64,000 nucleotides of DNA from Apostichopus japonicus (Eukaryota; Echinodermata; Holothuroidea; Aspidochirotida; Stichopodidae). The stretch is from the NCBI RefSeq assembly GCF_037975245.1, contig NC_092573.1, positions 7,924,501-7,988,500 on the forward strand, in the 5' to 3' direction. Under the pieces are notes generated by a model. That model worked only from the letters and a program-made list of their open reading frames with translations. It ran no database searches and had not been told where the DNA came from. Of this stretch, positions 27,542 through 64,000 are shown piece after piece. The position numbers were made by a program, and so were the translations under genes. The stretch's first letter is position 1. Each line of letters starts with the position of its first letter.

Positions 27542-27623
27542 ATGGGTCGTTTTTGCCTGACTCTCTTCAGCTTCTGTGTTGTAATCTTTCTTACCGGGGC
27601 CTGTGATGTTACCAATGAAAGTC
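27542..27623 (+). CDS. Exon 1 B: signal peptide of the FN3/module X family
   Basis: This is the diverged paralogue of exons 1 A and 1 C: same 82-base length, same AGTC|GTAAGT donor in phase 1, and a conserved leader. It starts MGRFCLTLFSFCVVIF and ends its hydrophobic core at ...TGAC, a plausible signal peptidase region. Joined to 44111-44392, 44644-44925, 45741-46067, 47082-47366 and 50109-50401, it gives an uninterrupted 516-codon secreted protein. This model skips the broken module X exon, which is possible without a frame change because the flanking exons are all phase 1. Confidence 0.75.
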
Positions 27624-27722
27624 GTAAGTTGTTTTGTTGTTGTCAAATTTGTCTAGTTATAGAAAGTTTTATCATTAAAAGAAAGTTTTTCTATTTATAA
27701 TAACCAAAAACTGTAGAACTCT

Positions 27723-27759
27723 TCACTTTTTTTATTCATTCCATTAGACTTCAAGTATG

Positions 27760-27855
<96 letters not shown>

Positions 27856-27889
27856 CTTGAAGCCTAATGGATTGAATAAAAAAAAGTGG
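27723..27889. repeat. (TA)n tract at the apex of a 45-bp inverted repeat
   Basis: CACTTTTTTTATTCATTCC...CTTCAAGTATGTATAT on the left is mirrored at 27845-27889 with few mismatches. About 80 bases of TA lie between. A cruciform or hairpin is expected. It lies 100 bases into intron 1 of gene B, next to a Penelope-like remnant. Confidence 0.9.
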
Positions 27890-27924
27890 TTGAGATTCCC
27901 AATATTGAATGTGACCTAATACCC

Positions 27925-28380
27925 CATTCCCTCTCTTGTAATTTAAGCAATGTCACTTACATAGTCTACTGTGTTCTTTGAAAGGAGGGCAATTATATAG
28001 GTGAAACAGGTTCTCGGTTCCGCTTACGTTTTAACAATAAAATCAACAATCAAACTGTAGCAGGATTCCCCGTTTCCGAACATTTCAATCTTCACAGAGA
28101 TTCACTCAAAACCTTAAATGTATCTTAATTTCCTGGAACTTCAAATCCGTAACAGATCGTAAACGAAAAGAAATCGATTGGATCGTTCGTATAAAGTATA
28201 CTGTGTTCTTTGTAAAGAGGACAGTAATGTAGGTGAAACAGGTTCTCGGTTCCGCTTACGTTTTAATTATCACAAAAAACTTCAAATCCGTACCTGAACA
28301 AAATGAATCGATTGGATCGTTCGTATTAATTCTCAACTCACCGGCCTCAGCAAAGACTTGGGACTTCCAAAACATCTACG
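27925..28380 (+). mobile_element. Penelope-like element remnant: GIY-YIG endonuclease end
   Basis: The frame reads SNVTYIVYCVL, then NYIGETGSRFRLRFNN, then GFPVSEHFNLHRDS, and near 28160 RKEIDWIVRI. The NVxYxxxCxxC lead-in, the YIGET core and the GxPVxxHF stretch are characteristic of the C-terminal GIY-YIG nuclease of Penelope-like elements. The second cysteine is lost to a stop. From 28197 a shorter second copy (CVLCKEDSNVGETGSRF...) repeats the same region with an internal deletion and ends QLTGLSKDLG. It is non-functional. Confidence 0.8.
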
Positions 28381-28756
28381 AGTTCCAAAAATATATGTAA
28401 TCCGTTCTTTATTTGTTCCTTAACCCGCTTCCTATATAGTAATGGTTTATTGGTATTAATTCCATCACTGCCGCTAGTACTTATCATACTTTCATTGTGT
28501 TTTTCAATTTGTAGTTTCACAGTAGATACTTGTCTTAATTGTTCGTATCGCAATCTATAACATGTTGCTTTCTTATGTTATTCGGGGAAAAAATGTTGCA
28601 CAACAACACATTGTTTCGAACCGCAACTGTTATCAATTATTCTTGATTGCAATTCGGTGAACTTCAAGAACTGTATATAGTATTGTTGGTGTAAAATTGA
28701 TAACAATAAACTCATTAAAAGAACATCGAAACGATTATAAAGCATTTGCCACGACA

Positions 28757-29797
28757 AAGAAAATAGAGGAAGAAAAAAAAAACCACTCATGTTACTTCAG
28801 AAGCTTCGCAAGAAATTCAGGAAATTGTGTAAGACGTCTGTAGGAGTGACAAGCGATGCTCAGTAAATCTAGTGGAAGAATTAATATTATTTTAACCATA
28901 TAGATGGAAGAACGTTTAGGATGTTCCATCTTCCCGTTGTGTATAGTAAACATTTACCGTTATTCCAATGAACTTCTGTCACTTTCGTTATTGCAAATAG
29001 TAGAGCCATCGGAATACTGGATTTTATTTGTAGAAGAATATAACCTACCGAAAGAAAATAGAGGAAGAAGAAAGAAAACAAAAACACTCATGTTATTTCA
29101 GAAGCTTCGCAAGAAATTCAGGAAATTGTGTAAGACGTCTGTAAGAGTGACAAACGAGGCTCAGTAAATCTAGTAGAAGAATTAATATTATTTTAACCAT
29201 AATGAGATGGAAGAACGTTTAGGATGTTCCATCTTCCCGTTGTGTATAGTAAACATTTACCGTTATTCCAATGAACTTCTGTCACTTTCGTTATTGCAAA
29301 TGGTAGAGCCATCGGAATACTAGATTTTATTTGTAGAAGAATATAACCTACCGAAAGAAAATAGAGGAAGAAGAAAGAAAACAAAAACACTCATGTTATT
29401 TCAGAAGCTTCGCAAGAAATTCAGGAAATTGTGTAAGACGTCTGTAAGAGTGACAAACGAGGCTCAGTAAATCTAGTAGAAGAATTAATATTACTTTAAC
29501 CATAATGAGATGGAAGAACGTTTAGGATGTTCCATCTTCCCGTTGTGTATAGTAAACATTTACCGTTATTGCAATGAACTTCTGTCACTTTCGTTATTGC
29601 AAATAGTAGAGCCATCGGAATACTGGATTTTATTTGTAGAAGAATATAATCTACCGAAAGAAAATAGAGGAAGAAGAAAGAAAACAAAAACACTCATGTT
29701 ATTTCAGAAGCTTCGCAAAAATTCAGAAAATTGTGAAAGACGTCTGTAGGAGTGACAAACAAGGTACAGTAAATCTAGTAGAAGAATTAATATTATT
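28757..29797. repeat. ~303-bp tandem repeat, about 3.4 units
   Basis: Units start at GAGGAAGAA near 28766, 29061, 29364 and 29667, giving spacings of 295, 303 and 303 bases. They are nearly identical, which indicates recent expansion or homogenisation. Each contains TTTAGGATGTTCCATCTTCC and CAGAAGCTTCGCAAG. Because 303 is a multiple of three, an 80-residue frame repeats in each unit; it has no recognised domain and I do not call it a gene. Confidence 0.95.
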
Positions 29798-31930
29798 TTA
29801 ATAATAATAATAAATTACATTAATATAGCGCCTAATACAGCGTGTCTAAGAGCTTTACAAAGTATGAAAAAACAAAGGAAACCAAGGAAAAAAGGAAACT
29901 ATGAATCAAACAGAAATGTTTTAAGTTGTTCCTTGAAAATACTAAGATAGGGAGAGTCACGAATGTGAAATGGGAGTTCGTTCCAAATTGAAGGCGCAGC
30001 GACAGAAAAGGCACGGTCGCCATAACGTGTGCGGGTACGTTGACCAGGAGTTAATTGCAAATGCGCATGATAGGAAGAGCGAAGCTAGCGAAACTGTAGT
30101 TGACCGCGCAAAGGAATAAGTAGGTCAGTGATATACTTAGGGGCAAGGCCGTTGATCGCTTTGTAGGTGTGAGGTAGTAGTTTTAACTGGATGCGATGAG
30201 AGACGGGAAGACATTGCAATGAACGGAGTACTTGGGTGATGTGATGAAACTTTTTAGTGAGTGAGACTAGGCGCACAGCAGCGTTCTGAATTCTCTGAAG
30301 GGGAGCTATATGAGAAAGTGGCAAATTCACATACAAACTGTTGCAGTAATCCAGATAGGAGGAAACAAAAGCGTGAACCAGTCGTTCAGTTGAGCCTTGA
30401 TTTAGATACCTCCCGAGTTTACCAATTTTGTAAATACTATACGCAGCTGAACCAAAAGTGTTCTGAATATGTTTTCGCACTCGAGTTTATCGTCAAGCAA
30501 GACACCAAGATCACGTGTATTTTCGGAAGGAGTTATCACATTTTTACCAACACTGACGTCAGGTAGGTTACTCTTATCTCTAAACTGGGAGGTGACGTGG
30601 ATGACTTTGGTCTTTGAATCGTTAATGAGTAAACTGTTGCAAGTGGACCATTGCTTGATGTCAGCGATACAATTGGAGAGACTGGTTTAGACTTGTATCA
30701 TGATCATTTTGTTTCATGATAATGTAAAGTTGCGTATCGCCAGCATACATAACGTGTTGAACACCCTTATGTGAATCGAAATGATGACTTAAAGGACCAA
30801 TATACAAAATGAATTCAAGTGGTCCAAGGACAGGTATTAGGTAAGGAGACGAAAGAGAATCTTTTACGACGATAGTTTGCTTTCGGTCTTCAAGATAGGA
30901 CTCAAGCATCTTTATAGCCGATCCAGTAATACCGTAGCTTTGCTACAAACTTTTAATGACGATTTGCTGGTCAATTATGTCAAAAGCTGACGAGAAGTTA
31001 AGGAAGACGACGACGACAGCCTCAAGACCTTTATTAATAGCAATGAGCATATCGTTGTAGATTTTGATGAGAGCAGTCTCAGTAGAGTGGAAACTACGAT
31101 ATGCCGATTGCATCATAGAGAAAAGCCCACAGTCGTGTAAATATATACGCAATTGCGCAGTAGCAATTTTCTCTAAAACCTTCCCGAGAAACATTAGTTT
31201 GGCAATGGGTCTGTAATTATCTACAGTGTAAGTCATTATTTTTCATGATTTCTTTAATAGTGGTTAAACATGGGCCACTTTTAAAGGTTCTTGAAATGAA
31301 CCCGAAGAGAGAGAAATATGTATAATGTGAGTAATGTACGGGTGAAGAACGTCAGTACAAGGTTTCACCAGTAAGGTAGGTATATGGGTCCAGTTTGCCG
31401 GATTTTGAAGGACACTCCATGATAGTCTTGCGTATTTGACTCTCAGTGACAAGTTCCAAGGAGGTGAATTCACTTTTGCAATCAGCACCCACGTCGGGGA
31501 GAACAACTAGACTTGAGTTTTCAAGACTGGTGGTGACTGTGTTGACTTTGTTGAAAAAGAAGGCAGCAAAATCGTTAGCGCATGCCCCATTGGACTCGTG
31601 GTTTGAAAGGACTGGATCAGACTTGACAGTGGACAGCCTTCGTACGAAATGGAAGAGGTTCTTGTTATCGCAAGTAGTGATTTCTGCTGTTAGATATTCT
31701 GAGTTTGCTTCCCCAATTAAGTGGTAACAGATACAACATTGCTCACTATACAACTGTCTATGGACCTCTAACCCTGTTTTAATCCAAGTGCGCTCAGAAC
31801 GTCGTCGCCTCCGCTTAGATTCCCTAATGTCTTCTGTATACCAAGGAGAATTTGGTCTCAGCGAAACACATGAGGTCTTGACGGGGGGTGATTGTCTATC
31901 AGTTGGCGGTGAGAGGATTCATATTGCACA
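29797..31930 (-). mobile_element. L2-like LINE, minus strand, 5'-truncated and decayed
   Basis: Read on the minus strand: a linker (LFHFVRRLSTVKSDPVLSNH, then FAAFFFNKV), a reverse-transcriptase start (DNYRPIAKLMFLGKVLEK, SAYRSFHSTETALIKI), a degraded catalytic box (YAGDTQLYI in place of YADDTQLY), and the C-terminal thumb (YLNQGSTERLVHAF, LDYCNSLY, LQRIQNAAVRLV). Frames are broken several times. The 3' end at 29797-29815 carries ATT-type repeats. Its 5' end stops just before the flank of the broken module X exon at 31987. Confidence 0.88.
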
Positions 31931-39470: not shown

Positions 39471-39730
39471 GATCAAAAAATACATATATCTATTAAAATA
39501 TATATCTATGTGTATCTATGCATATTGTTGTATAAAAACATTTCCAAATTCTGCAGGAGCTGGGCTTAGCCCAGTTCGATCAGAGTAATGACTTTACACA
39601 CTCACTAACGTCAGTCATTTTGTTATATTTTTTATTATTGTCATCTTTAATGAGGGTAGTCCTGCTCAGTGCAGAAGCACTGCTTTTTCCAGAGGAGCCT
39701 GCAAATACAAAAGACATATATAATCATTCA

Positions 39731-39830
39731 GCCACAGGATCCTGATGATTCCCTATGGGGAAATTGAAGGATGGTATTTGTGTTTCAGACACCTCCGTCA
39801 AACACTCGCAGTCACTTGAGGCTATCAGGT
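39731..39830 (+). pseudogene. 3' part of the broken module X exon (gene B exon 2)
   Basis: ACAGGATCCTGATGATTCC and the following 80 bases align with 58655-58755 of gene C. In frame it reads QDPDDSLWGN, then a stop (TGA for GGA), then RMVFVFQTPPSNTRSHL, against QNPDDPLWENGRKVFVLQTPPANTQNHL in two parts of gene C. Homology fades after 39830, so the C-terminal half with its cysteines is lost. Confidence 0.8.
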
Positions 39831-41620
39831 GGTTATGAATTGGGCATTATGCATTTCATCGTAAATCTTGTTTATTATGCATTCTGTCTCAAATATTGCA
39901 CGAAATAGGTAGTCTTAGAGTTGTTTTTTCCCTTCAAATTTTATGTCCAATTATTTGTTTTTTCCATAGCCACACTTTCCCCGCCGCACTTTCCCCTACT
40001 TTATCCCGCCCTACTTTCCCCGAACCTCCAGCCTTGATTCTAGCTTGAGATTATAGTAAATTGAGGCATATACAATAACATATTAAAAGTCAATACCCAT
40101 CATAATTCGTAGAATATTTAAAAAACAAACAAATAGTAACTAAACTCACTTGTTGAATATGGGTTATTATTATCTGGAAAAACAAAGTCAGGACATACGT
40201 AAAGTATACGTATTCGATGAATTTCAAATAAGAAGAATCTGTTGTCATTGCTACAAACCCGGATGTGTTATCAACAGATTTCATGACACTCGATACATTT
40301 CGTGGATATTTTTTTAAAGTTCAAAGAACTTCAGTCATATCCTTGACAATTGTTCAGATGATTAGTTTTAAAAGAGAGACTTATTCTTCGTCTTCATTTT
40401 CTGCAGTGGCCATTAAATTAAACTTGGAAATAAGATTATTCATTTCAATTGACTACTAAAGCTTTATGGCTTTTGTAAATGCGTTGATAATTATAATGAT
40501 AAACTTTTAATAATAAAAAAAGTTACCATGAAAAGAGAGGAGGGGATTGAGGAGGGGAGGGGGATTGAGGAGAGGGAGGGGGATTGGGTATATCGAGGCC
40601 ATGTAAGGGTAACTGGATAATCTTTGTTGAGCGTGAAGTATTATAAGACTAATTCTTTGAAAACCTCATGTGTCACTTTACAAAATGCTGTCACAACAGA
40701 AGGGAATTGATTACATCATTAAACCACCGTGAAACACCTTGCATTCAACCCTAACACCATTACAACATAACACCATGTTAAAAAATTACACCATGTTATA
40801 CCCTTACAACATAACATCATTACACATTTACACCATTACACCCACAACCTTGGATATATCTTCCGGCTATTCGTTCAGCATCTCAAAGTTGACAAATGTT
40901 GCCAAGAGGCTTTTGACCTTTTGTAAACCATGCCAAAACAGGTATAAACTCAGTGCTGTAGCCATCAGCGAAACCCCCTCCATCCCCAGTCAGTAAACAG
41001 GTTTTGGTTTTACAAAATTGTTTTTGCGCCCCCCCCCCCCCCCAAGCACTGTTAACGAGTAGAAACATGATATGGAGCTTTATCGCCATATGAGTATAGA
41101 GAGCGCTAACGTCAACCATTGTTGTGCTATGATGAAGCATGATACTACGTATTTACTGTTAGTGAGGGGTTGGAAGTCAAACAGCCAATATTTTAACTAG
41201 CTTTTCTTCAGTGCTTGGTCACCGAAAGTGACATGGAGAATATGGCGGGAGGGGAGTGGGTTTGGTGGTAGGGGAAAAGCCCGATCGAGCAGTTAGGTTG
41301 GTGGATATATAAAGCAGAATAATATGGGGGGAAATAACAAAGGTGTATATTAAATAAAAACAATTTATTCCAAATGGAAGCATAAAACTTAAACAAGAAC
41401 GAGCCAGGGCAACTGACTACATTGTCGGGGCTGCCAAAACCACCCTCCCATTAGTATCTAACCACGAAAACCCTCGATGGCTGGGCAGTTCTACGAAAGT
41501 AAACTTTACTACAGGAAGTTTATTCACAAGCCTAACAGCCACCGGGTTCCTCAACTGGGTGCCCTCCCAAACTGGGGCCCCTTCCTCTGCCAGATCCGAA
41601 GCCCCCTCCCAGTTCTTGAA
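39831..41620. other. No gene seen
   Basis: This contains a repeated CTTTCCCC patch (39966-40022), a purine-rich GGGGATTGAGGAG minisatellite (40535-40590), an ACACCATTACA-rich stretch (40745-40850) and a poly(C) run at 41025. No domains were found. Confidence 0.4.
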
Positions 41621-44110: not shown

Positions 44111-44392
44111 CTCCCAGCGATATTTTACTGACTGGAGTGACCCAATGCTCACTGAAATTCACCTGGAAACCTCCTCAAGACTGTCAGACACAAAATGGTA
44201 ACATCACCAGTTATTCATACAAACTACAGAACGTTGATGGAGAAGAAGTGCGTAATGGAACAACGGAGAAGACTTACGTAGCTCTTGGTGATCTAGAACC
44301 GAACAGAAAATATTACTTAATGGTGAGCGCCGTCAACTCTGAAGAAACAGGACCATACAGTGAACCCGTTTGGGAGGAAACGCGTTACAGAA
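44111..44392 (+). CDS. Gene B: FN3 domain exon 1
   Basis: This exon encodes one fibronectin type III domain of 94 codons, phase 1 to phase 1 (CTGAAG|CTCCC to CAGAA|GTAACA). Visible landmarks: the B-strand tryptophan in FTWKPP, the C-strand in SYSYKLQNVDG, the tyrosine-corner region LEPNRKYYLMVSAVN, and the closing GPYSEP. It has the same 282-base length as the gene C FN3 exon at 59717. FN3 domains of this type mediate extracellular protein contacts; the partner is unknown. It sits directly before the intact module X exon. Confidence 0.9.
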
Positions 44393-44643: not shown

Positions 44644-44925
44644 GACCCACATGTCCTGGCAATAGTCCATTGCGGTTTGGAGGAGTCTTACGGAGTACTG
44701 CAGGCACAGTTAGCAGTCGGCCATGGGGAACTGGTCAACCTATCTTTATTCTCCCTCATCACCTCCGGAAGAATCCATTCAAAAGGGGAGGTGCAGTTAT
44801 AATAGTCTGGTTCGGTACAGCTAAAAACTGTGGTGGCTCTTCAGTTCCCTGCCCAGGAAGAGTAACGGAAACTCAGGTATCAAGCGCGTGCCCGATAGAG
44901 GATGAATTCTCGCAGTGTAATGCAA
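44644..44925 (+). CDS. Gene B: module X exon (unrecognised cysteine module)
   Basis: This is a 94-codon exon, phase 1 to phase 1 (GTATTAG|GACCC to TGCAA|GTTAGT). It reads PTCPGNSPLRFGGVL, then WGTGQPIFILPHH, RGGAVIIVWFG and NCGGSSVPCPGRV, and closes with ACPIEDEFSQC. It is homologous to the gene C exon 58611-58901 and the broken exon at 31987/39731. Shared features are CPxxSPLxFGG, W-x2-G-x2-hydrophobic-F-x-L and five cysteines in the same order. An odd number of cysteines leaves one free or linked to a neighbour. I do not recognise the fold; an Ig-like sandwich is one possibility. Confidence 0.8.
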
Positions 44926-45740: not shown

Positions 45741-46067
45741 CTTGTCCACGGTATTCGGATAATACCACAAAATTTAGCAAAGAGAGTAATAGTTCGTCAA
45801 ATCTTCTCCTAACCTGGAGGGATTGGGACGTCACAGTTGACAGAGGTATCGGACCTATTACAGGTTACCTTCTGCGCCATGGCAAACTGGGAGAGCCTTC
45901 AACCGATATTCAGAAGGGGCTTAGCCTGCATCATCTGTTTACTGACCTCATCGATAAGCAGTGGTACTCTTTCGAAGTTATCGGAATGACGGGCACGTCA
46001 ACTGTGGGTGGTGGATTATGTGACGGCTCTGCGTCATTCAAGGTTCTACACTTTGCAGGCTGTGAAG
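45741..46067 (+). CDS. Gene B: FN3-like domain exon with extra cysteines
   Basis: This is a 109-codon exon, phase 1 to phase 1 (TTACTCAG|CTTG to GTGAAG|GTAGGT). The FN3 pattern is LLLTWRDWD (B strand), GPITGYLLRHG (C strand) and QWYSFEVIGMTG (F strand). It starts CPRYSD and has GLCDGSASF and FAGCEG near the end, so it is longer than the other FN3 exons. The extra cysteines may pair within the domain or with module X before it. Confidence 0.85.
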
Positions 46068-47081: not shown

Positions 47082-47366
47082 AACCATCAAGAAAACCAGT
47101 GAAACCAATAAGAGTGTACCTGGGAGGGACGAGCCAAACGTCACTCGAGTTTCGATGGTATAAAGCTCCACCCTGCAACATCGTGAACTACAGCCTTGTT
47201 AGTGATAACAGGATAATCAAAACAGAGATACTAGTATGCACACCTACATCTTCTATCGGATTGAATAACCTCACCGTATGCACAGAATATGAATTTCAGT
47301 TACAATTTGTCAACACCATTGGTGCAGGGCCAAAAGGTTTCGCGAAAGGAACGACGAATAGTGATA
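47082..47366 (+). CDS. Gene B: FN3 domain exon 3
   Basis: This is a 95-codon FN3 exon, phase 1 to phase 1 (TATATAG|AACC to GTGATA|GTAAGT). Landmarks are LEFRWYKAPPC, IVNYSLVSDN, LNNLTVCTEYEFQLQF and NTIGAGPKGF. Two or three cysteines (APPC, VCTP and TVCTE) are unusual for FN3 and suggest a disulphide. N-linked glycosylation motifs are possible at NLT-type sites. It was chosen over the longer read-through frame because the donor GTAAGT is strong and the phase fits its neighbours. Confidence 0.9.
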
Positions 47367-49199: not shown

Positions 49200-50100
49200 G
49201 AAGTTTCTGTCAGTTATAAGTCCCTCCGGATTTAGTCGGTAAACCTTTACATGAAGCGTTTCCTCGCAGGCAGCTGTGGTAACGTATCATGATAAATTCT
49301 ACAGACATTACTGTGAGAAATAAGATCCAATCACAAACTGAGCCCAAACTATATAACTTTATAACGAGGAGTGGATGAAATATGCTGCTAGTCTTTTAAA
49401 CCTACAATTCAGTCGTTGACAGTTATTTTTCATCAATTCCTAATGCTGATAACTTAGTGAGGGACAAATTACATATGTTAGCTAGAGCCACAGGATGTAA
49501 ATTAAAAACGAACTGATTGAGAAAATATGGGCAAACAAACCTTAATGAAGCAGAGGAATAAAAATATATGAAAAGTAAACGAGTGTTAGGTTGACTCTTA
49601 TATAATCAACATTACCTCTGTAAAAGGAAAGTGTCAAGAGATCAATAATTGGAGAATCGTCGACAAAACATTAGATAAAAATGTGAGAAATTATACCTTC
49701 AATAGTTCAGCCTTCAGAGGTAACACAGAGTACCATGTCACCCTCAGAGCTAGAATAGAGAAGGTGAAAGTGACTCAGAAACTGCCAAGGAACTCACAAT
49801 ATTGTAGGTGAGGCGGGTTGCTTTTAAGCTACAGAGGATCCATATTTCGATATAGCGCCAAAGTTTAAATGGGGCGTCTGTATTTTCTATGTAAAATATT
49901 AACAACAGAAGTTGTCCGTTTAATATCAAAGAGTCTACATGTTGGTCACTCATTTACAAGGTTACTTATGAGTCTCTGTGGCAACCAAGAGGTACATGTA
50001 AATCGTGTACAATTTGAATATGTCTTAGCAGAGTAAAGAGGAATTAATTGTTCTCGGGAAAGTTTAAGCAATAAACATACTGCGTATATGTTTATTCTCC
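49200..50100. other. Gene B last intron, no gene seen
   Basis: This is AT-rich sequence without repeats I can name; the acceptor tract TTCTCCCCCAACAG closes it. Confidence 0.45.
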
Positions 50101-50515: not shown

Positions 50516-51919
50516 AACATAAAAAAATAATCGGTTCAATAAGCGATGATATTTGTATCCAAGTTGGTACTTAAATAAAAAGAAGACTTCTTTTATTTTG
50601 TTTTCTCATCTCTACTGATGTATGTATGAAAGGATGTTCGTGTGTTTGTATTTATAGGGATGTGTTGGTGCATGTGCATGTATGTGTGTGTGTGTGTTTA
50701 TGCATAGATGTGTGTATGCATGCACGTGAACCTCAAAAGTACTGCAGGGTCAACAACAATATTTTCGTGAAACAGGGTTGGAACTGTTATACACATATCT
50801 TTCAAAGCAATAAATGAGAATGCAAAAATTAACTGACAGGCCTTCCATTACACTTTCCGGGCAAACGTGTGTGAGGAGAATCGAGCCTCAGAAAATATAC
50901 ACAGTGATGCTCAGCTTCGCCAGAGCCAAGTTCAGAACCAAGGAGTGGAGCAAACGGTAAGTGGGCATAAACCGGTGGTTCACATCCTTAAATATGCTAG
51001 AAAAATGGCCAAATGTTCACATTGGGGAAATCGATGAATTGTTAGAACATCCCTTCAGACAGTCAGAAGCATGAGTTTTTTCGATTTAGAGTTATTCGTT
51101 GTGTACATGGAGTGTGTGTGTGTGGATGGGGGCTGTAAAAGCGAGCTGGTACTACCCACACTCCTACAGTTTTGAGTACCACTTGTATGACATATTTTCC
51201 GGATATTATGGCACGTTTCTTTGTACATCGCATTTTCAGGGGGGGGGGGTGTTCGAGCAGTGGGGGACACCCTCTACTACCCTCCTCCTCTTCTCCGGGG
51301 GCACTATGTCGTAAAAAAAAATGTAGTAAAGGAAATTTGGCCCAGCGAGGGAACTAAATGCGATTTTGACAAGCCTTTTTTGAAAACAAATCAAAACTGT
51401 AGATACATTGGTTATTACAACTCCCGAGGGCCTCTTTTAAAGACATAGGTGATCGCCGCCCTTGGGTAAATGGGGGCGTCCATGTCCCCTGCTGGGGTCC
51501 GATGGCAAAGCCCCTGAAAGCCAAGCGATTTGGTGCACTATAGGGGACTCAATATAATATAATAAGTCTCGCTAGAACAAAGGCAGGTTAAACAATTAAA
51601 AGCTGAATAATATCTAAGCAATAGAGGACGGACTTTCATCAATAGGTATACAACATGAAAAGTCTTTCCTAACACACCAGAAATGGGATCTTTTCTCAAA
51701 CCTTCCAAATGCATGTTTTCTAGCATTTTTCATGCTAAAAGATTCCCTCGCTACCAATGTGATCTCTATTTGCCATGAGTTGTTTGTGTTCATTGCACAC
51801 GGCAACCCAGTTTAATCTCTTCTGAGTCAGTGTGCTCCTCAGCCAGGTTTGTAGATGTCTGAAGGCACTTCATGAGCGTTGTGCCTCGCATCAGGACACA
51901 GGGCAAACCAGTAGCAATC

Positions 51920-52874
51920 TTAGAAGCTGCTCAACCTATGGAAAAGGGATTTCATTTTTGATGATATGTGCAGCACATATGAAATTAAGGGCCAGCATTT
52001 TCCCCGGATAAGTGCTTGTGCCTTATTGTACTTTCCGTCCATGTTGGCTGCGCCGACGTAGGTTTGGCCGCAAAGGTTATCCTTGTTGATTCCTAGTCTC
52101 AGCATGACATTGAATATCATGGATGAAATTGCTTTACCAATGGTGTCCTCTAGCTTTTGAAACCCATTGAACCCCTCGTGTACTTGGAGGAAACCATCCA
52201 CGTAGCGTATGCACACACTTTCCTGTTCGACACCACTTATATCTTGCGTGCCATCGACAATAACTGTCGATATTACGGATTGACTGATATCCTCAATGAT
52301 GTTCCGTGGTATCTGGTGGGCAAAAAATTGAAGCACATCTTCTACACACTGGTGGTGGGTCACATCTGTGTCCCGTTCTAGCCAATCTTTCAATTCCTGG
52401 TCTTCCTTCGCTTGCATCAGGATAACTGGTTGAAGTTGTCCTCCTTTCTTCGTGTCCACGGTGTGCGAAACCTTGCATGAGTAGGAAACGTACAGCTCGA
52501 ACAATCTTTAAAAGGCACCTCCGGTTCTGTTCTTGTTGCTGTTTGTGGATGGATTGAATCTGTGCTGACACAGCTGTACCCTCTCTCTGCTGCAGTACAG
52601 TACTCACTGCCATCCTATGGCACATTGATGTTTCGTGAGCCCTAAATTTATCCCGAGTTTTTTTTCAAGTTTTTAAGGGAATGCAGATGAAGGTCGGCTC
52701 AGAATTGTTTTCAAGTTTCAGCAAGCCATATGAATCCGCCTTTGCACACTTGGAACACACCACAGAGCCTAACCTTGGGATGAAATGATGCCAGATGAAA
52801 TGTTTAAACCACTTCTCTTGAAAGTATAATTTTCTGGACCATAAACAGGGAAATAATTTCAATACATAAATCAA
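51920..52874 (-). pseudogene. ZMYM1-like hAT transposase, broken, copy 2
   Basis: This is the duplicate of 1452-2340. The TTF zinc-finger part (52874 down to about 52440, with FQEKWFKHFIWHHF and CSKCAKADSYG) carries a further frameshift near 52665. The catalytic part (52504 to 51920) is better kept than in copy 1: it retains LMQAKEDQELKDWLERDTDV, where copy 1 is scrambled, and VIVDGTQDISG plus GQTYVGAANMDGKYN. It then loses similarity after ALIRGKC. Comparison of the two copies shows independent decay after the duplication. Confidence 0.75.
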
Positions 52875-52879
52875 ATTTG

Positions 52880-55299
52880 CAGGTCATCTTAGTTTCCTAC
52901 ATTGCACAAAATTTGATAGATACACAATATTTTATAATAAAACTAGTTGCACATATATTGGTGGGAAATATGAAGAACTAGATAATTGTGTAGGCCTAAT
53001 AGTCAACACTCTGACCAATATCAAACTGGCATTACTGGCATTGTAATACATGGTTATTATAAAGTCAATACTAAACAAAGACATACTTATATTACTTATC
53101 TTGCAAACTCACTGATAATATGGAAGCCAATAGATAACAGTTAACACATAAATATTTTTTTAATGATAACTTTTTTTCTGACTCAACAATACTCTGTGTG
53201 GAATTGTGTGGAAGAGTTAACTGTGTGGAAGAGTATGACTAATTTTGTTTGTATTTTGATACATATTGACATCAGAACTCTTGAGGTGGTATGTTTTTCG
53301 CTGGTTCATGCTTCGGAACTGAATGCCCTAACGTCATGTCACTAAGTTGTGGTGGGGTGGTCTGTTGCTCCTTACCTCCAATTTTGAACGAGTCTGGTGG
53401 ACGGGTGGGCTCCGGAGGTACTTGTTCAATCGCTTGATCTTTTGCTGTAAGTGTGTGGGTGTACTCAGGTAGTATTTCCTTGGAATGTGATGCAGTTGGG
53501 TTGGTACACCACTCTGCTCTCCAGTCATTTCACGTTCAAGTGAACCTGCAGATAAGCTGGATGATTGCTTGGACCTTCTAAAAGACGCCTGGTTTAGTTT
53601 TTCATCACCAGGTGGCTCTCGTGTTTGGTATGGAATGGGACAGTTGCTCAGATTCTGATGAGTCAGCATCTTTACTTGTGGTGCCCTGTGTGATGAAAAA
53701 TGATGGGTCAAATAATTTTTATGTTTGTAGTGGTCCGGATGGCCATTTCGGGAAAGGGATATATCAAAACCTCTTATTATGTTGCAGTAGGTCCTGGACC
53801 CTGGTTGTGCAGGTTTTTCAGTTTAAAAATTACATAGCAGGTCACCTTGGTTTGCTGTTTGTAAATTTTGACTCTTGCACGTGCATTACGATGTTTGTAG
53901 TTAGCTCTCATATGTGAGCACCTGAGGTGAGCAGATAACGACTCACCTCAATTAATTCTAGGTGAGTTTAGATGCTGTGTTAGCTAACTCATAAGCCATG
54001 TTGTAACCCGCTGCACTTGGTACACTCACATTCACTAATCTCTACAATCTTCACATGTAAGGCGCATGCTCACCACTAAATTTGCTCTAGCTACAACCCT
54101 GCTGGGGAGTGGCTCTGGACTTTGCCCCCAAGAGATGTATGCAGTTTTCTTCGGCCCCATTATTCACATCAACTCGAAACACATTTTGCCAGTATTGGCA
54201 GATCTATGACCATTAATCATAAATAAAAAGCAACATCACTTTGGCACACCCATGCATGTTTACCAAACATTAGTGAAATTTATTGCATGCACATACAGTA
54301 CTAGCATCAACCCCCCCCCCCCTCCCCCACCGCCACCTCATTCCTAGAAGTCCCTGTTGTTATTGATTAACAGACAAGCTAGATATGGTAGTACATCTTA
54401 CCTGTTTTGAAGACTTGTTTTGGCTTGAAGGTCAAGAATGCTTGGTCATGACTGCTTGAGTCGCTTCACGGGGGGACCGCTAGACATTGTCCTGGATCAG
54501 ACCACCAAACTGGGAAAATATAATAAAAAAGTACAAGGTAAAGTCCTTACAATTCCACAGGTGCTATTCAACATATATTTTTCATTCTACCGTTACTCCA
54601 ATGCTGAAGCCAATCATATACAAAACATTCAATCAATGTACAAACATACAATAGTGCTACTCCTTTGATTGTAATTGGGTAAAAAGTTGGACAATCATAT
54701 ACACATGGACATCATTGTTCAAAAAATAATATTGTACTCCTACGATTGTAATGAGGCAAAGTTGGAATATTACTCATTCTACCGTTACTCTCTTATGAAA
54801 TACAATCAGATTCTACATTCAAATTGATAGATAAAATCTCCATCTCATTTCTCGTTCCGTATTATAGCAACTGATAATTAGAGACGATTTTTTTCACAAG
54901 TTTGTTGATAATAAACCAGTTGACAAATGTAAAGCGTCATTTCACTTAGTTTCAGTAATTTTCTAAAACGATAAATCAGAGCAATAACTATAGAAGTACT
55001 TGGCATTTCATCAGTTCGTATCGGTTCTTTGCAACACCGACGGAAAATGACGAAATGAAGAAATCACCCATACATCGAAGGGAGTGTTTATATTTTACTT
55101 GCTAATTTGTGGTCTAATGATTTAATCACTTCACCATACCATTGTGATTGTTGTCGCTAAATATTTTCATTTCCTGAATTTGAGATATGTCTGTTTCCTG
55201 AGTTCAGTTTTCCTTTTGTAGCAGATTTTATTTTTCATGAGGGAGGCGAATGTATTCAGTATTCAGGTATCATTTTGCCAAAGACAATCGACGCGTGAC
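52880..55299. other. Duplicated non-coding stretch of copy 2
   Basis: This matches 2345-6119 apart from the missing 1.3 kb (junction near 54578). A minus-strand open stretch at 53334-53711 corresponds to 2794-3213 without a nameable domain. Confidence 0.5.
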
Positions 55300-55307
55300 T
55301 ATACAAA
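55300..55307 (+). promoter_or_regulatory. Altered TATA box of exon 1 C
   Basis: It reads TATACAAA where copy 1 has TATATAAA, at the same distance (55 bases) from the ATG. Confidence 0.45.
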
Positions 55308-55354
55308 CAATTCTATGTTCGATTGGATAAGAAAGCTGACAGATATCAAGGGAG

Positions 55355-55436
55355 ATGGATCGCCTGTTCCTGACACTGATCCAGCTATGTGCGCTTACGT
55401 TTCCTATTGGGGCTTGTCTAATCAGAGATGCTAGTC
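55355..55436 (+). CDS. Exon 1 C: signal peptide of gene C
   Basis: It is identical to exon 1 A except for one amino-acid change (Pro for Ser in the hydrophobic core, TFPIGAC) and a silent change. It starts MDRLFLTLIQLCAL and ends in phase 1 at AGTC|GTAAGT. The next family exons, 58611-58901 (module X) and 59717-59998 (FN3), are in phase, so this is the start of a plausible working gene. A proline within the signal core just before the cleavage region is tolerated in many signal peptides. Confidence 0.8.
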
Positions 55437-56693
55437 GTAAGTTGCGTTTTATTCAGTTAATCGGTTAATGTAGTAGTTCAAACAGATCTATAGTGTTACT
55501 GGGAAGATCTGCGATACGTGACTTTCCATCAGTTAGTATTTGCTAGATAGAATGATAAGCTGCTTAAAAATTTACGTAGAGTGAGAGGTCTGTTTCATTT
55601 TTTGTGCCTTTTATTCATTAAGGCGTAGGAAACGAAACCGAAGATTGTAGTATGCACATCAAAAGCCAGCTAAGAAAATGTGATTCTTCCCATTTCAATT
55701 TTGAGTATTTGTCTCATTTGTCACTTGTAAATCGCTATGCGCATATATCCAAAAGACAATCACTTACCTTGAAAAACAAGAGCTAGATCACTGAATAACG
55801 TTATCCTTAACTATACTTCTTTGGTAGATAAATTGAAATCTCCATAAGAATACAATAATACCGACAAATTATACCATAGACCTGAATTTTCATACTTTAA
55901 AATATGTTGTATAAACATTTTTGTCATGACATTTATAAGCTAATGTGCATGTCAAGAAGTTCCATAGAGCGTAATGTTTGTAACATAGGACACAGTTAGA
56001 CTCTTTTAGTTATACCAAACTAAGTCATGGTAGCCTACAAAAGTGTTCTGTGGACATCACTTCATGAGACGTTGTCTTATCTTAATCGAAGAACAACATG
56101 CTCGAAGTACACCCTAACCAGTGACATATACAGATATTCTTCATGTAAGGAGCGGGGAGGAGGGGATGGGGGGGGGGGGGGCAACTATCGGTAGATACAG
56201 AAATTAATACCGAAGTAGAGGTGCAAAGTGAGTTAACATTTTCACTGTATTGCTTTCTGACTAAGTTATAGTGACAAATGATTTTCGTAATGCCACCCTC
56301 CGCTAACTGAATGCCCTGTTAACCATACCGACAGTTATGCCTTCTCTCGTGCATTCATTGATTATCTTATTTACCTCACTTGGCAATCGAACTGTATCAT
56401 TATACATAATTATAACGCAACGAGGAAAAGAGAAAAGGACATTTCACTTCTGTCAGAAAGCTGAAAACAAAATAAGGAAATAGTTTGACACGTCTTATGC
56501 CAATTATGAAAATAATTGTAATCCTTTGATGGAAATGCTATTGTTTCAATCTTTATAAGACGCATAAACATGAAGGATGTGATTGCTTCCCACTGTCAGT
56601 CTGATAAGGTGTTATAAAATGCATACCATCGTTATGTCTGTAAGCTACTGTTGTAATATTTAGTAGGAGAATGTGTAAAACCACTTGTCATTT

Positions 56694-56734
56694 AGCCTTT
56701 GGAGAAGATCCTGCTAGGATCGAAACGTCAGGCC
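56694..56734 (+). ncRNA. Hammerhead ribozyme-like motif, copy 2
   Basis: The same layout as 7489-7529: GCCT, core TTGGAGA, stem II GATCC-TGCTA-GGATC, GAAA, ACGT, C, AGGC. Two core positions differ from CUGANGA, so it is less likely to cleave than copy 1. It lies in intron 1 of gene C. Confidence 0.55.
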
Positions 56735-56835
56735 AACTCACTTTTACACACGTAATAATTGGTAAAGTGACTGGATGGATCCAGCGCCGGAGGGAACAGG
56801 GGCCATGGCCTTACCTTGGGAGTTTTCGCATGCAT

Positions 56836-56922
<87 letters not shown>
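56836..56922. repeat. (CACG)n microsatellite without the nested element
   Basis: About 21 CACG units follow CGCATGCATG. This is the empty-site counterpart of 7621-7946. Confidence 0.97.
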
Positions 56923-57440
56923 GGCATTCATTTCCTTTCTACTGAAATTTTCTAATCTTTGGTATTTACAAATATTTGTCCGGTCTGGGGCCCTCCCCTT
57001 CCTAGAGATCCTAGACTGGTCACTGTATGGTAGTCTTGCGGGGATTTTATTTTTGAAGAGAACCTGTGGAGAAAACAATTTGAGCTAAGATTTCACAAGA
57101 TTCACTGAAGTGTTTATTTGGAAACAGTTACAAAAAAGATGTAATTGAATGCACAATTACTTTAAAGAAATACAGTTGTTGAAGTCACAAAGTTTGCAAG
57201 AAGAATTGACTTAATGCATGTATGGTCTGCTTTAGCAGGTGGTGAATATATCGAATTGTTTGCGATCGTCTGCCATGAGCTCTATAACGAAACTTAACTA
57301 TTTACTAAACAAAAGTACGACATGAATGTATAAATCATTGTACTAGATTAAATATCAGAGACTTTACTGAGTTAAGGGGGAAAACGGGATAAATTGCATA
57401 TCAATGCATAAAGTCAACTTACTAATGTTGTATATTTAAA

Positions 57441-58140: not shown

Positions 58141-58151
58141 AACAATGGAAA

Positions 58152-58215: not shown

Positions 58216-58282
58216 CAAAATAGTTCGTGGTGATCCCTTCTAGCCATTTCTTTGATGGGCCCTGGGAATGGCCAACAGCTTA

Positions 58283-58346: not shown

Positions 58347-58610
58347 TTCTAGACTTTTTCGTTTGCTCCTCTCTCAGTTTGAAACTACTCTGAAATGCAA
58401 TAAACTATGAACGTTTATTTCGGGAACATTTTTGCGGTTCACTGTTGCATGTGGTCCTGTTCTGGGGCAATTGTGTGATATCTTAGGGCAAACATCACAT
58501 CATGTTAGAAAAATTGTTATCAAATCTGAGGATAAATGTCCAATTCTTTCGCTGTATAGTTTAGTCAATAATCATCAATAACAATGGATATCTATTTCAT
58601 CTTTCTCTAG

Positions 58611-58901
58611 ATTGCCCTGCTAAAAGTCCCCTCGTGTTTGGAGGACGGATCCAGGCACAAAATCCGGATGATCCTCTATGGGAGAATGGAAGAAAGGTAT
58701 TTGTGCTTCAGACACCGCCCGCTAACACTCAAAACCACTTGGGGTCATCACGACGTTTTAAAGTAAGAGGATCGAGAGGCGTTATTCGAATTGCATCAAA
58801 GAGCTGCGCCAGATCGGGAAAAAGATCGAATGTCGCATGTCCCGTCACCCTTCCCTCGAATTTGCCATGTCGTTTGCAGGGTATTGGTTCGTGCAGCTCG
58901 G
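58611..58901 (+). CDS. Gene C: module X exon
   Basis: This is a 97-codon exon, phase 1 to phase 1 (TTTCTCTAG|ATTG to GCTCGG|GTAAGT). Joined to exon 1 C it reads SHCPAKSPLVFGGRI, then WENGRKVFVLQTPP, RGSRGVIRIASKSC, VACPVTLPSNLPC and closes with IGSCSS. The five cysteines and the CPxxSPLxFGG start are shared with 44644-44925. The middle is basic (many Arg/Lys), unlike gene B. It directly follows the signal peptide and so would be the N-terminal domain of the mature protein. The fold is not recognised. Confidence 0.8.
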
Positions 58902-58909
58902 GTAAGTTG

Positions 58910-59700
58910 GACGTATTGAAGCTTTCTCATCTCTCCTTCCACCCCCTGCAACCACATTCTTTCATTACCAACCAAATAAGAAGGAACCGAATAGAACATG
59001 GTCGACATTACACACTCGTTCATTTTTAATTCTGAACAAACTTTCTCTACGAGATATTAGATTATCTCGCGGGAGTGGAGGAAAGGTGGTGCAGGCAATG
59101 GATTGCTACCAAATCAGTGTATCCTAAAATCATGCCTTTGGTTATATTAATGAAATTTCGATGCTATGTCATATTATGTCTAAATTCATAACTTTCTGAA
59201 TTTACACAGTTTGTGAACTCATTTTTCTCGACATTCTGGTGCACCCTTCAGTAGGTGCCATGGTTTCTGAAATCGCAATTTCCTCTCTTAAGAAATTCTG
59301 CAAGGGATTATTATTATTCATGGCTTAATTTCAACCATCAAAAAAAAAATTGATACTAACGCATCTGGTGGTCCTGTCAATAATCTCTTTCTATCTCCAC
59401 CCTGGATGTCATTAATTAAACGCTAATGTGATAGATACTAACAAAAGGCAAAGAAAGCAATCGTTCGATTCTCCCTATCCAACCCTTACTATACATCGCT
59501 CTGCACGCACTTCCACTTCCCTTCTATAACCTAATCTCACCTGTGAAAAGGTCGTGATGGAAAGTAAAATTTATCAAATTGTATCATCCCGCACCGTCCA
59601 CCCCATCATGTGACAACCTATGCGCTGATATATATTTGCTGAATGTGATGTTTATATATATTTATATAAATAATAAACCAGTCTATTGTCTGCTATCTCC
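58910..59700. other. Gene C intron 2, no gene seen
   Basis: This is AT-rich sequence without named repeats; a short (TA)-rich patch lies before the acceptor ATCTATATAG. Confidence 0.4.
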
Positions 59701-59716
59701 CCTCTTATCTATATAG

Positions 59717-59998
59717 ATCCTTTGTCTTTTTCTAACATTACATCATCTGGATTCCATATTGATTGGAAACATTTCGACCCTATTGTTCGCGCGAGAATTG
59801 CCGTTACTGGATATATTGTCCAAATTCGAGAGATCGGAGGTCCGTTCCACCAGGTTACAACAGGAGCAGAAGACCCTTCCTACGACTTCGATCTGCTAAC
59901 ACCCGACACTACCTATGAAGTCCAATTAGTTCCTATAAGTAGTTCTTCTAACGATATTGCACCTTCAAACATACAGGCTGTCACGACATTGTGCGGAG
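59717..59998 (+). CDS. Gene C: FN3 domain exon
   Basis: This is a 94-codon FN3 exon, phase 1 to phase 1 (CTATATAG|ATCC to TGCGGAG|GTAAGT). Landmarks are FHIDWKHFDP, VTGYIVQIREIGG, LTPDTTYEVQLVPI and a closing AVTTLCGG. Its length and its place after module X match the order module X then FN3 in gene B (44644 then 45741). It is less similar to any one gene B FN3 than the module X exons are to each other, judging by eye. Confidence 0.88.
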
Positions 59999-60519
59999 GT
60001 AAGTTATTATACACCGTAAAGCTGTCCTTAACAAATCAATCTCCATGTTTTTAACTTTAATCACTTTAGTGTACGACAGACTTGAAGTAGGAGTACAACT
60101 GTAGGAATACATGTATACAATCATAATTCGACTTCGTATGAGTACGAATAGGAGTACAAGGCTCTACGCGCGAGTGCTGTAAAAAAAGCTGAGGCCACTT
60201 TTCTTCTAAAAGTGGGTGCAACCAGGCTGCCCTGGTGTAATCTCAGATTTCAACACAGGGTAAAATGAAGGCTTTCTCCCAAGAAGGAAAATTAATAAAT
60301 TAACAAGTTTCAACACTTCAAGAGGTAATTTGAGTTTACCTCCAAATGTGATGGCAACAGAAGTTGCATCCTAAAAAGAAGGGTAACCTCTACTTTAACT
60401 TCTATCGTGGAAAACTTCGGATTTCCACCATCCAGTATCAAATATGTTGCAATAGGGAGGGGAAACCACTCCCAGGCAATCTAAGCCCACAATAATTAAA
60501 CTGTCTCCCTCCCTTTGAC

Positions 60520-61600
60520 CCCTTCCCCTAATAATACTGAATAACAAAACTAGCATGTAAACATTTCTGTTATCATGATTCCGTCAAGTAAGAAAATGGT
60601 AAGTAAAACCAATGATGTAAGCTATCATAAGCAAATATTGGTGATTTCGAACCCAGCATTAGATGACCATTTCTGTCTTATGAGCCATTAAGATAATATT
60701 AATTGCAATACATTTATATCATAACCAAAATTGTACATTTGTCCACCCCATAATAGTGAATGTAAGCCAAAAATGCTTACCAGGTTTGATTTCTGAGCAA
60801 TGAATTGTGGTTTGGAGAAACAAAATTCTCTTGCAATGTAACTTACAGAGGCGGAACTACACTAAAAAACATTTTTGCCACCTGGATGCTCATTTTCACA
60901 CATAAAATAAAGAAGTGGAGCTATATTTAAAAGATAGTAAAATAATACTGAAAATTACCACTATCATGTAACTATTCTGTTAACATATTGCCACCATTTA
61001 AGAAAAATGGTAGCTATAAAAAATAGTGTAGGATATCACAACCAATCTTGGATTTTTTTGTAAGTCCTCAAAGGTAAATGAGTCGGTCGTTTCACTCATT
61101 TTGTAAATAAAGGAAATAGCATTTTGTTTTTTATGCCTATCAGTCAATCGTGATAATTGCTAACCCAACACTTGCTGGCCACTACAGTCTCTAAGGCGTT
61201 ATGACAGAATCAACTGCAAATAACTATTTCATAACCTTACAAATTTGATCTTTGTCCACCAATTCCTGTGTGTAAATGACACACCAGTTTTTTTTTTTGA
61301 TGAGCATTACATTTTAGATAAGAATATTATTTTCTCTTCATAGTAACTAGTACAGAGGCTGGACTTATTCTTTATAACAATATTATACCTCCTGGATGGC
61401 CATTGTCCCAAATAAAACATAATAAAGAACTGTAGCTCTTAATTGATAAAGTAAAATAATACTGAACAACAATACTAACAAATTTAAACGTTTCTGTTAA
61501 CATAACACCATCATATGAAAATAATGGTATAAGCCTATGTAAAACAAATATTTTAGGCTCTCACAACCAATACTAGATATTTTAAAAGTTCTCAAAAGGA
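60520..61600. repeat. Degenerate ~0.4-0.5 kb tandem repeat, about 2.5 units
   Basis: Landmarks recur near 60535, 60945 and 61450: AATAATACTGAA, then TTTCTGTTAACAT-like, then ATCACAACCAAT-like sequence. ACAGAGGCGGAAC / ACAGAGGCTGGAC and CACCTGGATGCTCATT / CTCCTGGATGGCCATT mark the other half. The units are old and diverged. Confidence 0.65.
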
Positions 61601-61639
61601 TAGTAAGTTTTACTTTCTTATTTTCTCATCAAAGGAAAT

Positions 61640-61895
61640 TACCTTCGTGGTGTTTTCTGTCTGTCAGCTATACCCATAAGGAAGTTTTGGAAAAAGGTGA
61701 AGGTTTCTCTGTCCCCTCTGGGGCTTGCTAGGTTACATGCGTCATAAGCCCTGAAGGGGTGACAAGCGCCTAAAGTGGAACGACCTTCCTTACCTCTGGA
61801 CACCCAATCAGCGTCGTCCATAACCTAGTGGTTAGGGTGTCCGCGTACAAAGCGGGAGGCCCGAATTCGAATCCCGGTGGAAGCTGGAAGTTTTT
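61640..61895 (+). repeat. tRNA-derived SINE-like unit
   Basis: The tRNA-like part (about 61815-61885) has the A-box TAGTGGTTAGGGTG, an anticodon-like arm CCGC-GTACAAA-GCGG and the B-box AATTCGAATCCC. The T-stem does not pair, so it is not a working tRNA gene. Flanking sequence upstream may belong to the SINE body. Confidence 0.5.
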
Positions 61896-61927
61896 TCACT
61901 GTTCTTGATTTTCCAACTCATTTACGA

Positions 61928-61936
<9 letters not shown>

Positions 61937-62013
<77 letters not shown>

Positions 62014-62050
62014 TTATATATATGTATCTGTATATATATATATATATACA
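61937..62050. repeat. (TA)n microsatellite
   Basis: About 75 bases of uninterrupted TA are followed by interrupted TA/CATA. The Ile/Tyr-rich frames are artefacts. Confidence 0.97.
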
Positions 62051-62059
62051 TATACATAT

Positions 62060-63540
62060 GATACATATATTTATTTGTGTGTATGCGTGTGTGCATACAT
62101 ATGTCCACCTCCTTTTCCTCCTATCCCTCTGCCCCTCCACCCCACCGTCATAAAGTAGGGCCTTGTATGAGAGATGACAATGACATAATTCGTCAACTAA
62201 AGTTATTAAGCCAGTGCCTTAGCCTACGTGTCATATTTCTACTCCATCGAAAAACAAAATATAGTTATTTTTGCTTTCGAAGTATAAAAAAAACAAGCTT
62301 CAAGTGATTCTTCCTTAAATAATGTTTTTTTTTATTGCCTTTTTTATTATCACTTCAAACCCGGATGCGCTCTGAACACACAGGGCAGTGCGGCCTTGTT
62401 GACTTGACCTGTTGTTCAAATTACAAACATAATATATTTTGTAGGGAAATGTCATTATAACCTTCTAGCTTGTTAACATTGTAAAAATTAAGAAAATCAT
62501 ACTTTGTTGATGTTCCTTTTATCTAAATTCGACAAAGATACTGTAATCGATTTGCTCAAAGTTAGTTATAACTATATTTTCACATAGTGTCTCCTTTCGT
62601 AATGACATAGAAACACGATAAACGCACATATTATTGCAACCGCTTCTTCGGGTTTTGCGTTTTTGGTATTTTTAACGACTCTATGAATTTGATTATAACA
62701 AAAAAGTTTAATATATAAGGTCCAGTTTCAAGGAGTGAATTTAAGTTTTTCTTAGGCTTTTATGAAAAGAGAGTCAGAGGACAAAACTTGTTCTTCAATG
62801 GAACTATTTTACAGATGCGAACCAAAAGGTGTTGAAGTTTGCCCAAGTGTTATTAAAAGTTTCATTTGCTGGGATTTGTAAAGATGAATAGAATTGGTGA
62901 CAAACAAAAGAAGAAATGTTGTTTTAAAGAGCGACCACCATAGGCTGACTTTTAATCATGAGATTGACATCATCTAAGACCACAGAAAGAAATGGGTGAT
63001 AATGTTGTATTCTTCTTTCGGTGTTCAAAATACTCAGCATTAAAGTGTGATGAATATCTGGAATGCTTAATTCTCAATTGATTTCGGCTCCTCTATACAT
63101 TAATTCACTGATGAAGAGATGGTTGGTCTTTTTCCGGGAATCAACATTACTTATATGTTGCACAAATCTTTCAGGACCACAATATGTATTTGGTTACACC
63201 GTCACATTATGGCTCCATGGCGTCAAGTCAGCATGATCCATGAACGCATGAACGCATGAACAATATTATCACATTAGCTCACCATAATAATCTTACATTA
63301 AGGAAACTAAGCTTTTGTCATTTCGCAAACACCCTACCCGACTATGAGATTTGTAAGCTGACAGACCTCATTACTAAGCGAAGATAATTTTAAACGAGCA
63401 TAAATTTGAATGGGTTAATCTCCTAATTATGTGTAAGAGTTCTTCCTATAGTTTATAGAATGTATGCATAGGCTTATGGTTTTCAGTTTGCCACCCACAC
63501 AAGATTTCTTGGAAATGAAGTGACACTCATACTATTATAT
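62060..63540. other. Gene C intron, no gene seen
   Basis: This is AT-rich sequence; ATGAACGCATGAACGCATGAAC at 63239 is a tiny tandem repeat. Confidence 0.4.
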
Positions 63541-63547
63541 CTTGCAG

Positions 63548-63612
63548 TTCCTGCCTCCCCTGCAATTTCTGTTAGCGAAACTACGTCAAGGACAGCAACG
63601 GTAAATGTCCAG
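63548..63612 (+). CDS. Gene C: N-terminal half of a further FN3 domain
   Basis: A 65-base exon after TATCTTGCAG, entering in phase 1 and leaving in phase 0 at GTCCAG|GTAAGC. It reads VPASPAISVSETTSRTATVN when joined to the previous exon, the A and B strands of an FN3 domain before the core tryptophan. The intron inside the domain differs from the one-exon FN3 modules upstream. The second half was not found in the last 390 bases, so it lies beyond the window. Confidence 0.6.
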
Positions 63613-64000
63613 GTAAGCTCATCTGAGGTCATTGTCACATTCCATACGTAGTTAGTATAGTCATCTAAAGTCTGTACTTTGTTGTCCAGTTTCAAGGCAC
63701 TTCAAAGCACTGAGCAATGTGAGTATCATGCTTTCGTTAGATAATGGTTCAGAATTGTTCATTCTGTCAAAACTAGTGCCTCGAGACACGGTATGAGAGA
63801 ACAGCATATAAAGTGCATGGTATGAATATGGACCAAATTAAACATCTGGGACATCTGAAATGATTTTTTTTTTGCGCTCTCACATCTACCCACACCGTCG
63901 CTCTCCAATATCGTGGCAATGTTCCCGTTCACGTTCATGTAAATTCATTTTTCTTAAGATATACACTTAAATTTATGCCAAACTGTGATGAAAATGTGGT
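63613..64000. other. Intron at the right edge, no gene seen
   Basis: No acceptor with a following FN3-like frame is evident before the window ends. Confidence 0.4.

Follow-up and report, generated by a model that had tools for sequence, protein, structure and literature searches.

The DNA stretch analyzed here (the window) comprises 64,000 nucleotides of the genome of the holothurian Apostichopus japonicus (contig NC_092573.1, referred to as C13; C13:7924501-7988500) and lies within a tandem array of about 380 kb, which contains two types of genes for putatively secreted proteins composed of fibronectin type III (FN3) domains and a second module termed X, and in which every modeled exon is located on the plus strand. 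A previous interpretation made from the letters of the window alone (the sequence-only reading) had proposed a tandem family of at least two neighboring plus-strand genes; the family is larger than that, with six short and four long gene bodies. All short bodies show the exon order FN3, X, FN3, FN3, FN3, and one of the six short-type signal-peptide exons found in the genome precedes each of them, exon 1 of gene A being matched together with its 5' flank. The four long bodies (T1, B, T3 and T4) and five long-type signal-peptide exons were counted in the 264 kb that were read directly (C13:7844501-8108500, window included); three further stretches of about 5.7 kb were also read, and the remainder of the array is known only from the rows of whole-genome searches, which took in 671,581,487 bases on 35 contigs and in which FN3 counts are lower bounds, as 150 of 679 candidates were scored. 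Scans with hidden Markov models (HMMs) covered both strands of the entire window and recovered no further full FN3 or X exon beyond those reported (Table 1); Pfam was run on the plus-strand frames of 43001-53002 and 54001-64000 of the window only. We are highly confident of the structural part of this finding, a tandem family of two gene types for secreted proteins made of FN3 and X.

The short gene that is complete in the window, gene A, consists of six exons spanning 27542-50401 with five phase-1 junctions and AG/GT at each of them, and its joined frame of 516 codons is followed by TAA directly after an FN3 domain. Exactly such a frame, assembled from five exons plus exon 1, had been proposed in the sequence-only reading for what it called gene B (our gene A), and this proposal proved correct. 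A strict alternation of FN3 and X, which had also been suggested, does not exist, as gene A has the order FN3-X-FN3-FN3-FN3. The prediction that exon phases are almost all 1-1 is true for the internal exons of genes A and B, except for one FN3 of gene B that is split over two exons (1-0 and 0-1). The joined gene A protein matches the Pfam model fn3 (PF00041) in four stretches with 117.4 bits (cut-off 25), and FN3 #2 and FN3 #3 fall under the cut-off when scanned singly. The first intron of gene A includes a tandem repeat (28770-29808; unit of 303 bases, 3.4 copies, 96% matches).

Gene B starts in the window and was followed past its end; its 18 modeled exons encode 1635 codons without internal stop. 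The model contains two X modules and 14 FN3 domains, a minimum number since another half FN3 was seen at 7996660, and the encoded protein matches Pfam fn3 in 12 stretches with 321.1 bits. Stop-free models were also obtained for T4 (1597 codons) and T3 (947 codons), both incomplete: in T4, the first-half exon at 8065023 is absent from the model and one FN3 is spliced at an early donor; the T4 half exon at 8072618 is not included either, nor is the T3 half exon at 8037948. T1 shows a frame change in X and broken FN3 matches. The long-gene models imposed open modules and matching phases between neighbors; the phase value 1 was not imposed. The signal-peptide exon said to be common to the genes of the window is indeed present in genes A and B and, outside the range from which it had been reported, in a third copy (Table 1, orphan exon). 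A short conserved reading frame that includes a hydrophobic stretch (MKKSR.H.REC..LYLLFCGVMMSIT; C13:8019202-8019444 and 8058098-8058331) lies just ahead of two long-type signal exons and might represent either an upstream open reading frame or an alternatively used first exon.

Table 1. Features of the window and of the surrounding array (window positions; genome positions on C13 where indicated)
Feature	Position	Strand	Remarks
Gene A exon 1, signal peptide MGRFCLTLFSFCVVIFLTGACDVTNES	27542..27623	+	phase 0-1
Gene A FN3 #1	44111..44392	+	phase 1-1
Gene A module X (X_A)	44644..44925	+	phase 1-1
Gene A FN3 #2, divergent, three cysteines	45741..46067	+	phase 1-1; Pfam fn3 18.3 bits alone
Gene A FN3 #3, fast-evolving exon	47082..47366	+	phase 1-1; Pfam fn3 22.7 bits alone
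Gene A terminal FN3 #4 with TAA	50109..50401	+	AATAAA at 50510
Gene B exon 1, signal peptide MDRLFLTLIQLCALTFPIGACLIRDAS	55355..55436	+	phase 0-1
Gene B module X (X_B)	58611..58901	+	phase 1-1
Gene B FN3 #1	59717..59998	+	phase 1-1
Gene B, first half of split FN3	63548..63612	+	phase 1-0; gene runs on to C13:8005939, stop next
Decayed remnant of long-type first X exon	39726..39842	+	one in-frame TGA
Remnant resembling penultimate FN3 exon of gene B (genome 8002555-8002875)	49590..49808	+	by eye, from translations
Possible second-half FN3 remnant	50840..50956	+	by eye; no Pfam match
Orphan long-type signal-peptide exon MDRLFLTLIQLCALTFSIGACLIRDAS, fifth of its type	6175..6256 (genome 7930675)	+	donor GTAAGT; no body found before next gene
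Duplication copy 1	8..8491		holds orphan signal exon; about 1.3 kb (4044-5351) absent from copy 2
Duplication copy 2	50586..57439		starts 185 bases past gene A stop
Short gene body starts, genome	g1 7716735; g2 7762346; g3 7818413; g4 7861497; g5 7919170; gene A 7968611	+	
Long-type signal exons, genome	T1 7874256; B 7979855; T3 8019596; T4 8058517	+	

The X copies of genes A and B are clearly similar to each other (Smith-Waterman z = 8.7), and none of 2000 shuffles gave as good a score, so their likeness is not due to chance. A genome search with X_A returned eight rows, six of the short and two of the long type; of the ten rows obtained with X_B, five correspond to the four X copies of the long type, one of which is split into two pieces, and five to remnants, which are located ahead of g1, g2, g3, g4 and gene A, with none ahead of g5. 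All rows of both searches fall within the array. None of 11 X copies matched Pfam at E values up to 10 (filters drop most matches above 0.1), a profile search of the PDB gave no chain at E values up to 10, and no relatives were confirmed in IMG/VR and GTDB contigs. The description of X as an unrecognized cysteine module is thereby upheld, and X represents a sequence domain without match in the searched Pfam and PDB copies.

In all three long genes whose 3' end was read (B, T3 and T4) the final FN3 is immediately followed by a stop, and in all six short genes the frame of the final FN3 ends in the same way; outside the signal peptide, the hydropathy of gene A (19-residue scale) never exceeds 1.07. 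No membrane exon or continuation of the gene was found downstream of B, T3 and T4 among plus-strand frames of at least 55 amino acids, which were read by eye rather than scanned with Pfam, up to the next signal exon (B, T3) or to 8095000 (T4). A membrane receptor with distant exons was rejected on the basis of this reading to the stops of B, T3 and T4. At the level of DNA, secretion without a membrane segment, as claimed in the sequence-only reading, is thus supported, with the last exon out of phase at its usual acceptor in four of the six short genes. The joined proteins also show no classical immunoglobulin (Ig) domain: for gene A no Ig model of Pfam passes its cut-off, and the two that do so for gene B, Ig_ILCR1 with 38.9 bits and Ig_RIMBP2 with 31.4 bits (cut-off 27), have their best stretches on FN3 domains (1585-1615 and 410-489). 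In the PDB, gene A is matched best by FN3 domains of the receptor-type tyrosine phosphatases F and delta. This is what one would expect if the proteins descended from a receptor tyrosine phosphatase or kinase that lost its membrane and catalytic exons, as its soluble decoys or its remnants. However, the likeness to these phosphatases of the LAR group (PTPRF, PTPRD) is confined to their FN3 part; the genes described here encode module X, the three long genes read to their 3' end stop right after their last FN3, and no classical Ig domain, membrane segment or phosphatase was found. We know of no receptor tyrosine phosphatase or kinase with a module X, and consider such an origin very improbable.

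Compared module by module (pairing by eye, on translations), gene A resembles gene B minus a block of FN3 exons, and two remnants of long-type exons are still present within gene A (Table 1). The short type thus most likely arose from the long type by losing middle exons, and loss of exons, for which the symmetric phases would allow, has occurred in evolution. All five exons are kept in the six short bodies, with AG and GT retained at the first four; none of these 30 exons has an internal stop in its frame, and insertions and deletions within domains come in threes.

To what extent these exons are constrained was analyzed separately for the two types. For the long type, 15 exons of B and T4 were compared (signal exon and half-exon pair excluded; one T4 donor set by likeness to B). 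Each of these exons differs less between the two genes than its flanks of 150 bases do, with p <= 0.010 in 14 of the 15 cases, and the ratio of nonsynonymous to synonymous substitution rates (dN/dS) is 0.49 when pooled and 0.21 for the first X exon. Purifying selection acts on the exons of the long type. In the six short genes dN/dS is 0.54 for FN3 #1, 0.86 for X, 1.12 for FN3 #2 and, with its first codons trimmed, 0.89 for FN3 #4; FN3 #2 and FN3 #4 vary about half as much as the flanks over the six copies (p = 1.1e-4 and 0.012), part of the flanks being from two old, divergent groups. FN3 #3 behaves differently in the four recent copies g1, g2, g3 and g5, where 34 of 279 columns are variable compared with 22 of 476 in the flanks (p = 2.5e-4), that is 2.6 times more, and where FN3 #1, X, FN3 #2 and FN3 #4 show no significant excess over the flanks (p 0.12 to 0.90). 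The excess is seen in all six pairs among these copies, which are not independent (p 1e-8 to 1.4e-3), and 21 codons of FN3 #3 carry an amino-acid change, compared with 4 that show silent change only. In addition, g1 differs by 0.4% from g4 in the 250 bases upstream of FN3 #3 and by 0.4% from g2 in the 250 bases downstream, which indicates a crossover in or beside this exon.

One fast FN3 exon in four recent short genes fits a role of these secreted proteins in recognition, which is our best guess, with a probability of about one half. Several observations weigh against it. Over all six short copies, dN/dS of FN3 #3 is 1.53 with a bootstrap range of 0.91-2.92, and the exon is not more variable than its flanks (56/279 versus 87/472, p = 0.63), because the adjoining introns differ strongly between the two groups of short copies; the four recent copies were picked after their flanks had been seen to be alike. 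Silent change is higher in FN3 #3 as well (proportion of silent differences, pS, 0.057 versus 0.024 in flanks), so that recombination or mutation may contribute to its variation. The long-gene exon matching FN3 #3 is conserved between B and T4, and it is the terminal exon of this pair that shows a dN/dS of 1.04. A confinement of the variation to the FN3 #3 loops is not supported, as variable residues are not significantly concentrated there (loops 23/52, strands 12/42, p = 0.14). The AlphaFold model of FN3 #3 has a predicted local distance difference test score (pLDDT) of 70 and gave no match in a fold search at E <= 0.001, the top rows being mostly other beta folds; that of X, built from a two-row alignment, reached a pLDDT of only 33. 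Finally, four of the six short copies have in common a loss of 7 bases at the start of the last exon, which puts the usual acceptor out of phase. Beyond this loss the FN3 frame is intact in the four copies, and gene A is unaffected; by eye, no bridging exon that would mend the phase was found before the last exon in the frames of g1, g5, g4 and gene A. The four copies either use another acceptor, or their proteins end after four modules.

Such a loss would also be expected if the short genes were decaying copies of the long gene, with relaxed constraint instead of positive selection and with remnants that are open by chance. The two remnant exons inside gene A, dN/dS values near 1 for X, FN3 #2 and FN3 #4, and the finding that FN3 #1, X, FN3 #2 and FN3 #4 are not significantly less different than the flanks in the four recent copies are all consistent with decay. 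On the other hand, decay does not readily account for 30 exons (five in each of six copies) free of internal stops and with indels in frame, or for the low variation of FN3 #2 and FN3 #4 mentioned above with its mixed flanks, and relaxation alone does not raise FN3 #3 above the introns in the recent copies. Decay is, in our opinion, quite improbable. We rate similarly low, and only slightly higher, the chance that the proteins function in reproductive recognition, as egg coat proteins or sperm ligands; in proteins of this kind, too, genes duplicate in tandem and a single domain changes fast. A fast-evolving exon within a tandem array, and a module X that both genome searches found nowhere else, would agree with this, but there is no gamete-protein domain among the Pfam matches of the joined genes A and B.

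Secreted proteins with many FN3 domains are commonly matrix proteins, and the proteins described here might accordingly be matrix or adhesive proteins of the body wall or mutable collagenous tissue, with a tenascin- or fibronectin-like long form that is modulated by the short forms; fast change of FN3 #3 would then reflect co-evolution with a matrix partner. The many FN3 domains, secretion and purifying selection on the long form agree with this interpretation. Tenascins and fibronectin are likewise secreted strings of FN3 domains, which are often encoded by one exon each. In contrast to these, module X and clustered genes are found here, Pfam scans of the joined genes A and B detected no EGF, fibrinogen, FN1 or FN2 domain, and an excess of variation in one exon is atypical of structural proteins. 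Both the matrix function and the co-evolution it would entail seem rather unlikely to us.

If the proteins do serve in recognition, both kinds would be soluble multi-domain binders. Most of their modules, which number two X and no fewer than 14 FN3 behind the signal peptide of the long kind and one FN3, X and three more FN3 behind that of the short kind, would act as conserved scaffold or in partner binding. FN3 #3 of the short proteins would contact a changing target, and unequal crossing-over and gene conversion would distribute its variants over the gene copies. Judging from other echinoderm families, this target would likeliest be non-self, such as microbial surfaces, with recognition taking place in the coelomic fluid; immunity as the setting is a tentative assignment, less probable than recognition itself. 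Echinoderms are described as gaining recognition diversity via expanded germline families (PMC13428168). A germline-diversified FN3 recognition family, in which FN3 #3 is the variable head and X and the other FN3 domains are the fixed stem, with a small repertoire per animal, is an unlikely though conceivable version of this idea; in it, the short protein, stripped down from the long conserved one, would have its change concentrated in the single FN3 #3 exon, with crossovers between copies there. A cluster of this sort, where short copies that each have one fast FN3 exon derive from a long conserved protein, would be nature's counterpart of engineered FN3 binders.

Judged from titles and abstract openings, none of the papers listed in literature searches describes an FN3 and X family of this sort. 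The SpTransformer (Sp185/333) family of sea urchins is similar in its echinoderm host, its clustered copies, some of them in segmental duplications, and its variable paralogues, and the mosaic variation of clustered paralogues that is typical of it is found here in the array and the mosaic copy g1. SpTransformer proteins are also secreted and are not known to contain FN3. Their genes have two exons, as opposed to six (gene A) or at least 18 (gene B) exons for FN3 and X in the array. Dscam, an invertebrate protein discussed in immunity, also contains many FN3 domains, and gene B reaches 88.6 bits in its FN3 stretches with the Pfam model FN3_DSCAM-DSCAML_C. In contrast to Dscam, the joined proteins have no classical Ig domain and no membrane segment, and scanning the 264 kb for FN3 and X revealed no run of alternative exons.

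The orphan signal exon is part of a segmental duplication of about 7-8 kb, whose two copies consist of pieces 90-92% identical in BLAST comparisons; 26 of its 27 residues are identical to those of the gene B signal exon (tblastn), and between it and position 27542 no X or FN3 exon was detected by HMM. At the site of the possible second-half FN3 remnant, copy 1 is one base short and has 14 extra. Minus-strand frames in the duplication resemble a hAT/ZMYM-type transposon, and microsatellites of the ACGC type (7818-7946 and 56827-56926) occupy matching places in its two copies.

Just past the last long gene, two weak FN3-like matches (C13:8089009-8089763; E = 0.0067 and 0.00026) are the sole ones on the minus strand in the FN3 and X scan of the 264 kb. 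Elsewhere in the genome, FN3 exons are densely packed in C23:15068877-15124715, many of them at intervals of about 510 bases, and perhaps encode a giant FN3 protein; the genome searches with X_A and X_B found no module X there. A tRNA-like match to RF00005 at 61814-61885 (35.3 bits), for which ARAGORN made no call when run on the window, may belong to a short interspersed nuclear element. Two copies of a reverse transcriptase region similar to long interspersed nuclear elements (15373-17089 and 20560-22259) are 93.6% identical, and further frames that, from their translations, we presume to be of the same kind are located at 30085-31918 (minus strand), 33744-36064 and 37786-39182.

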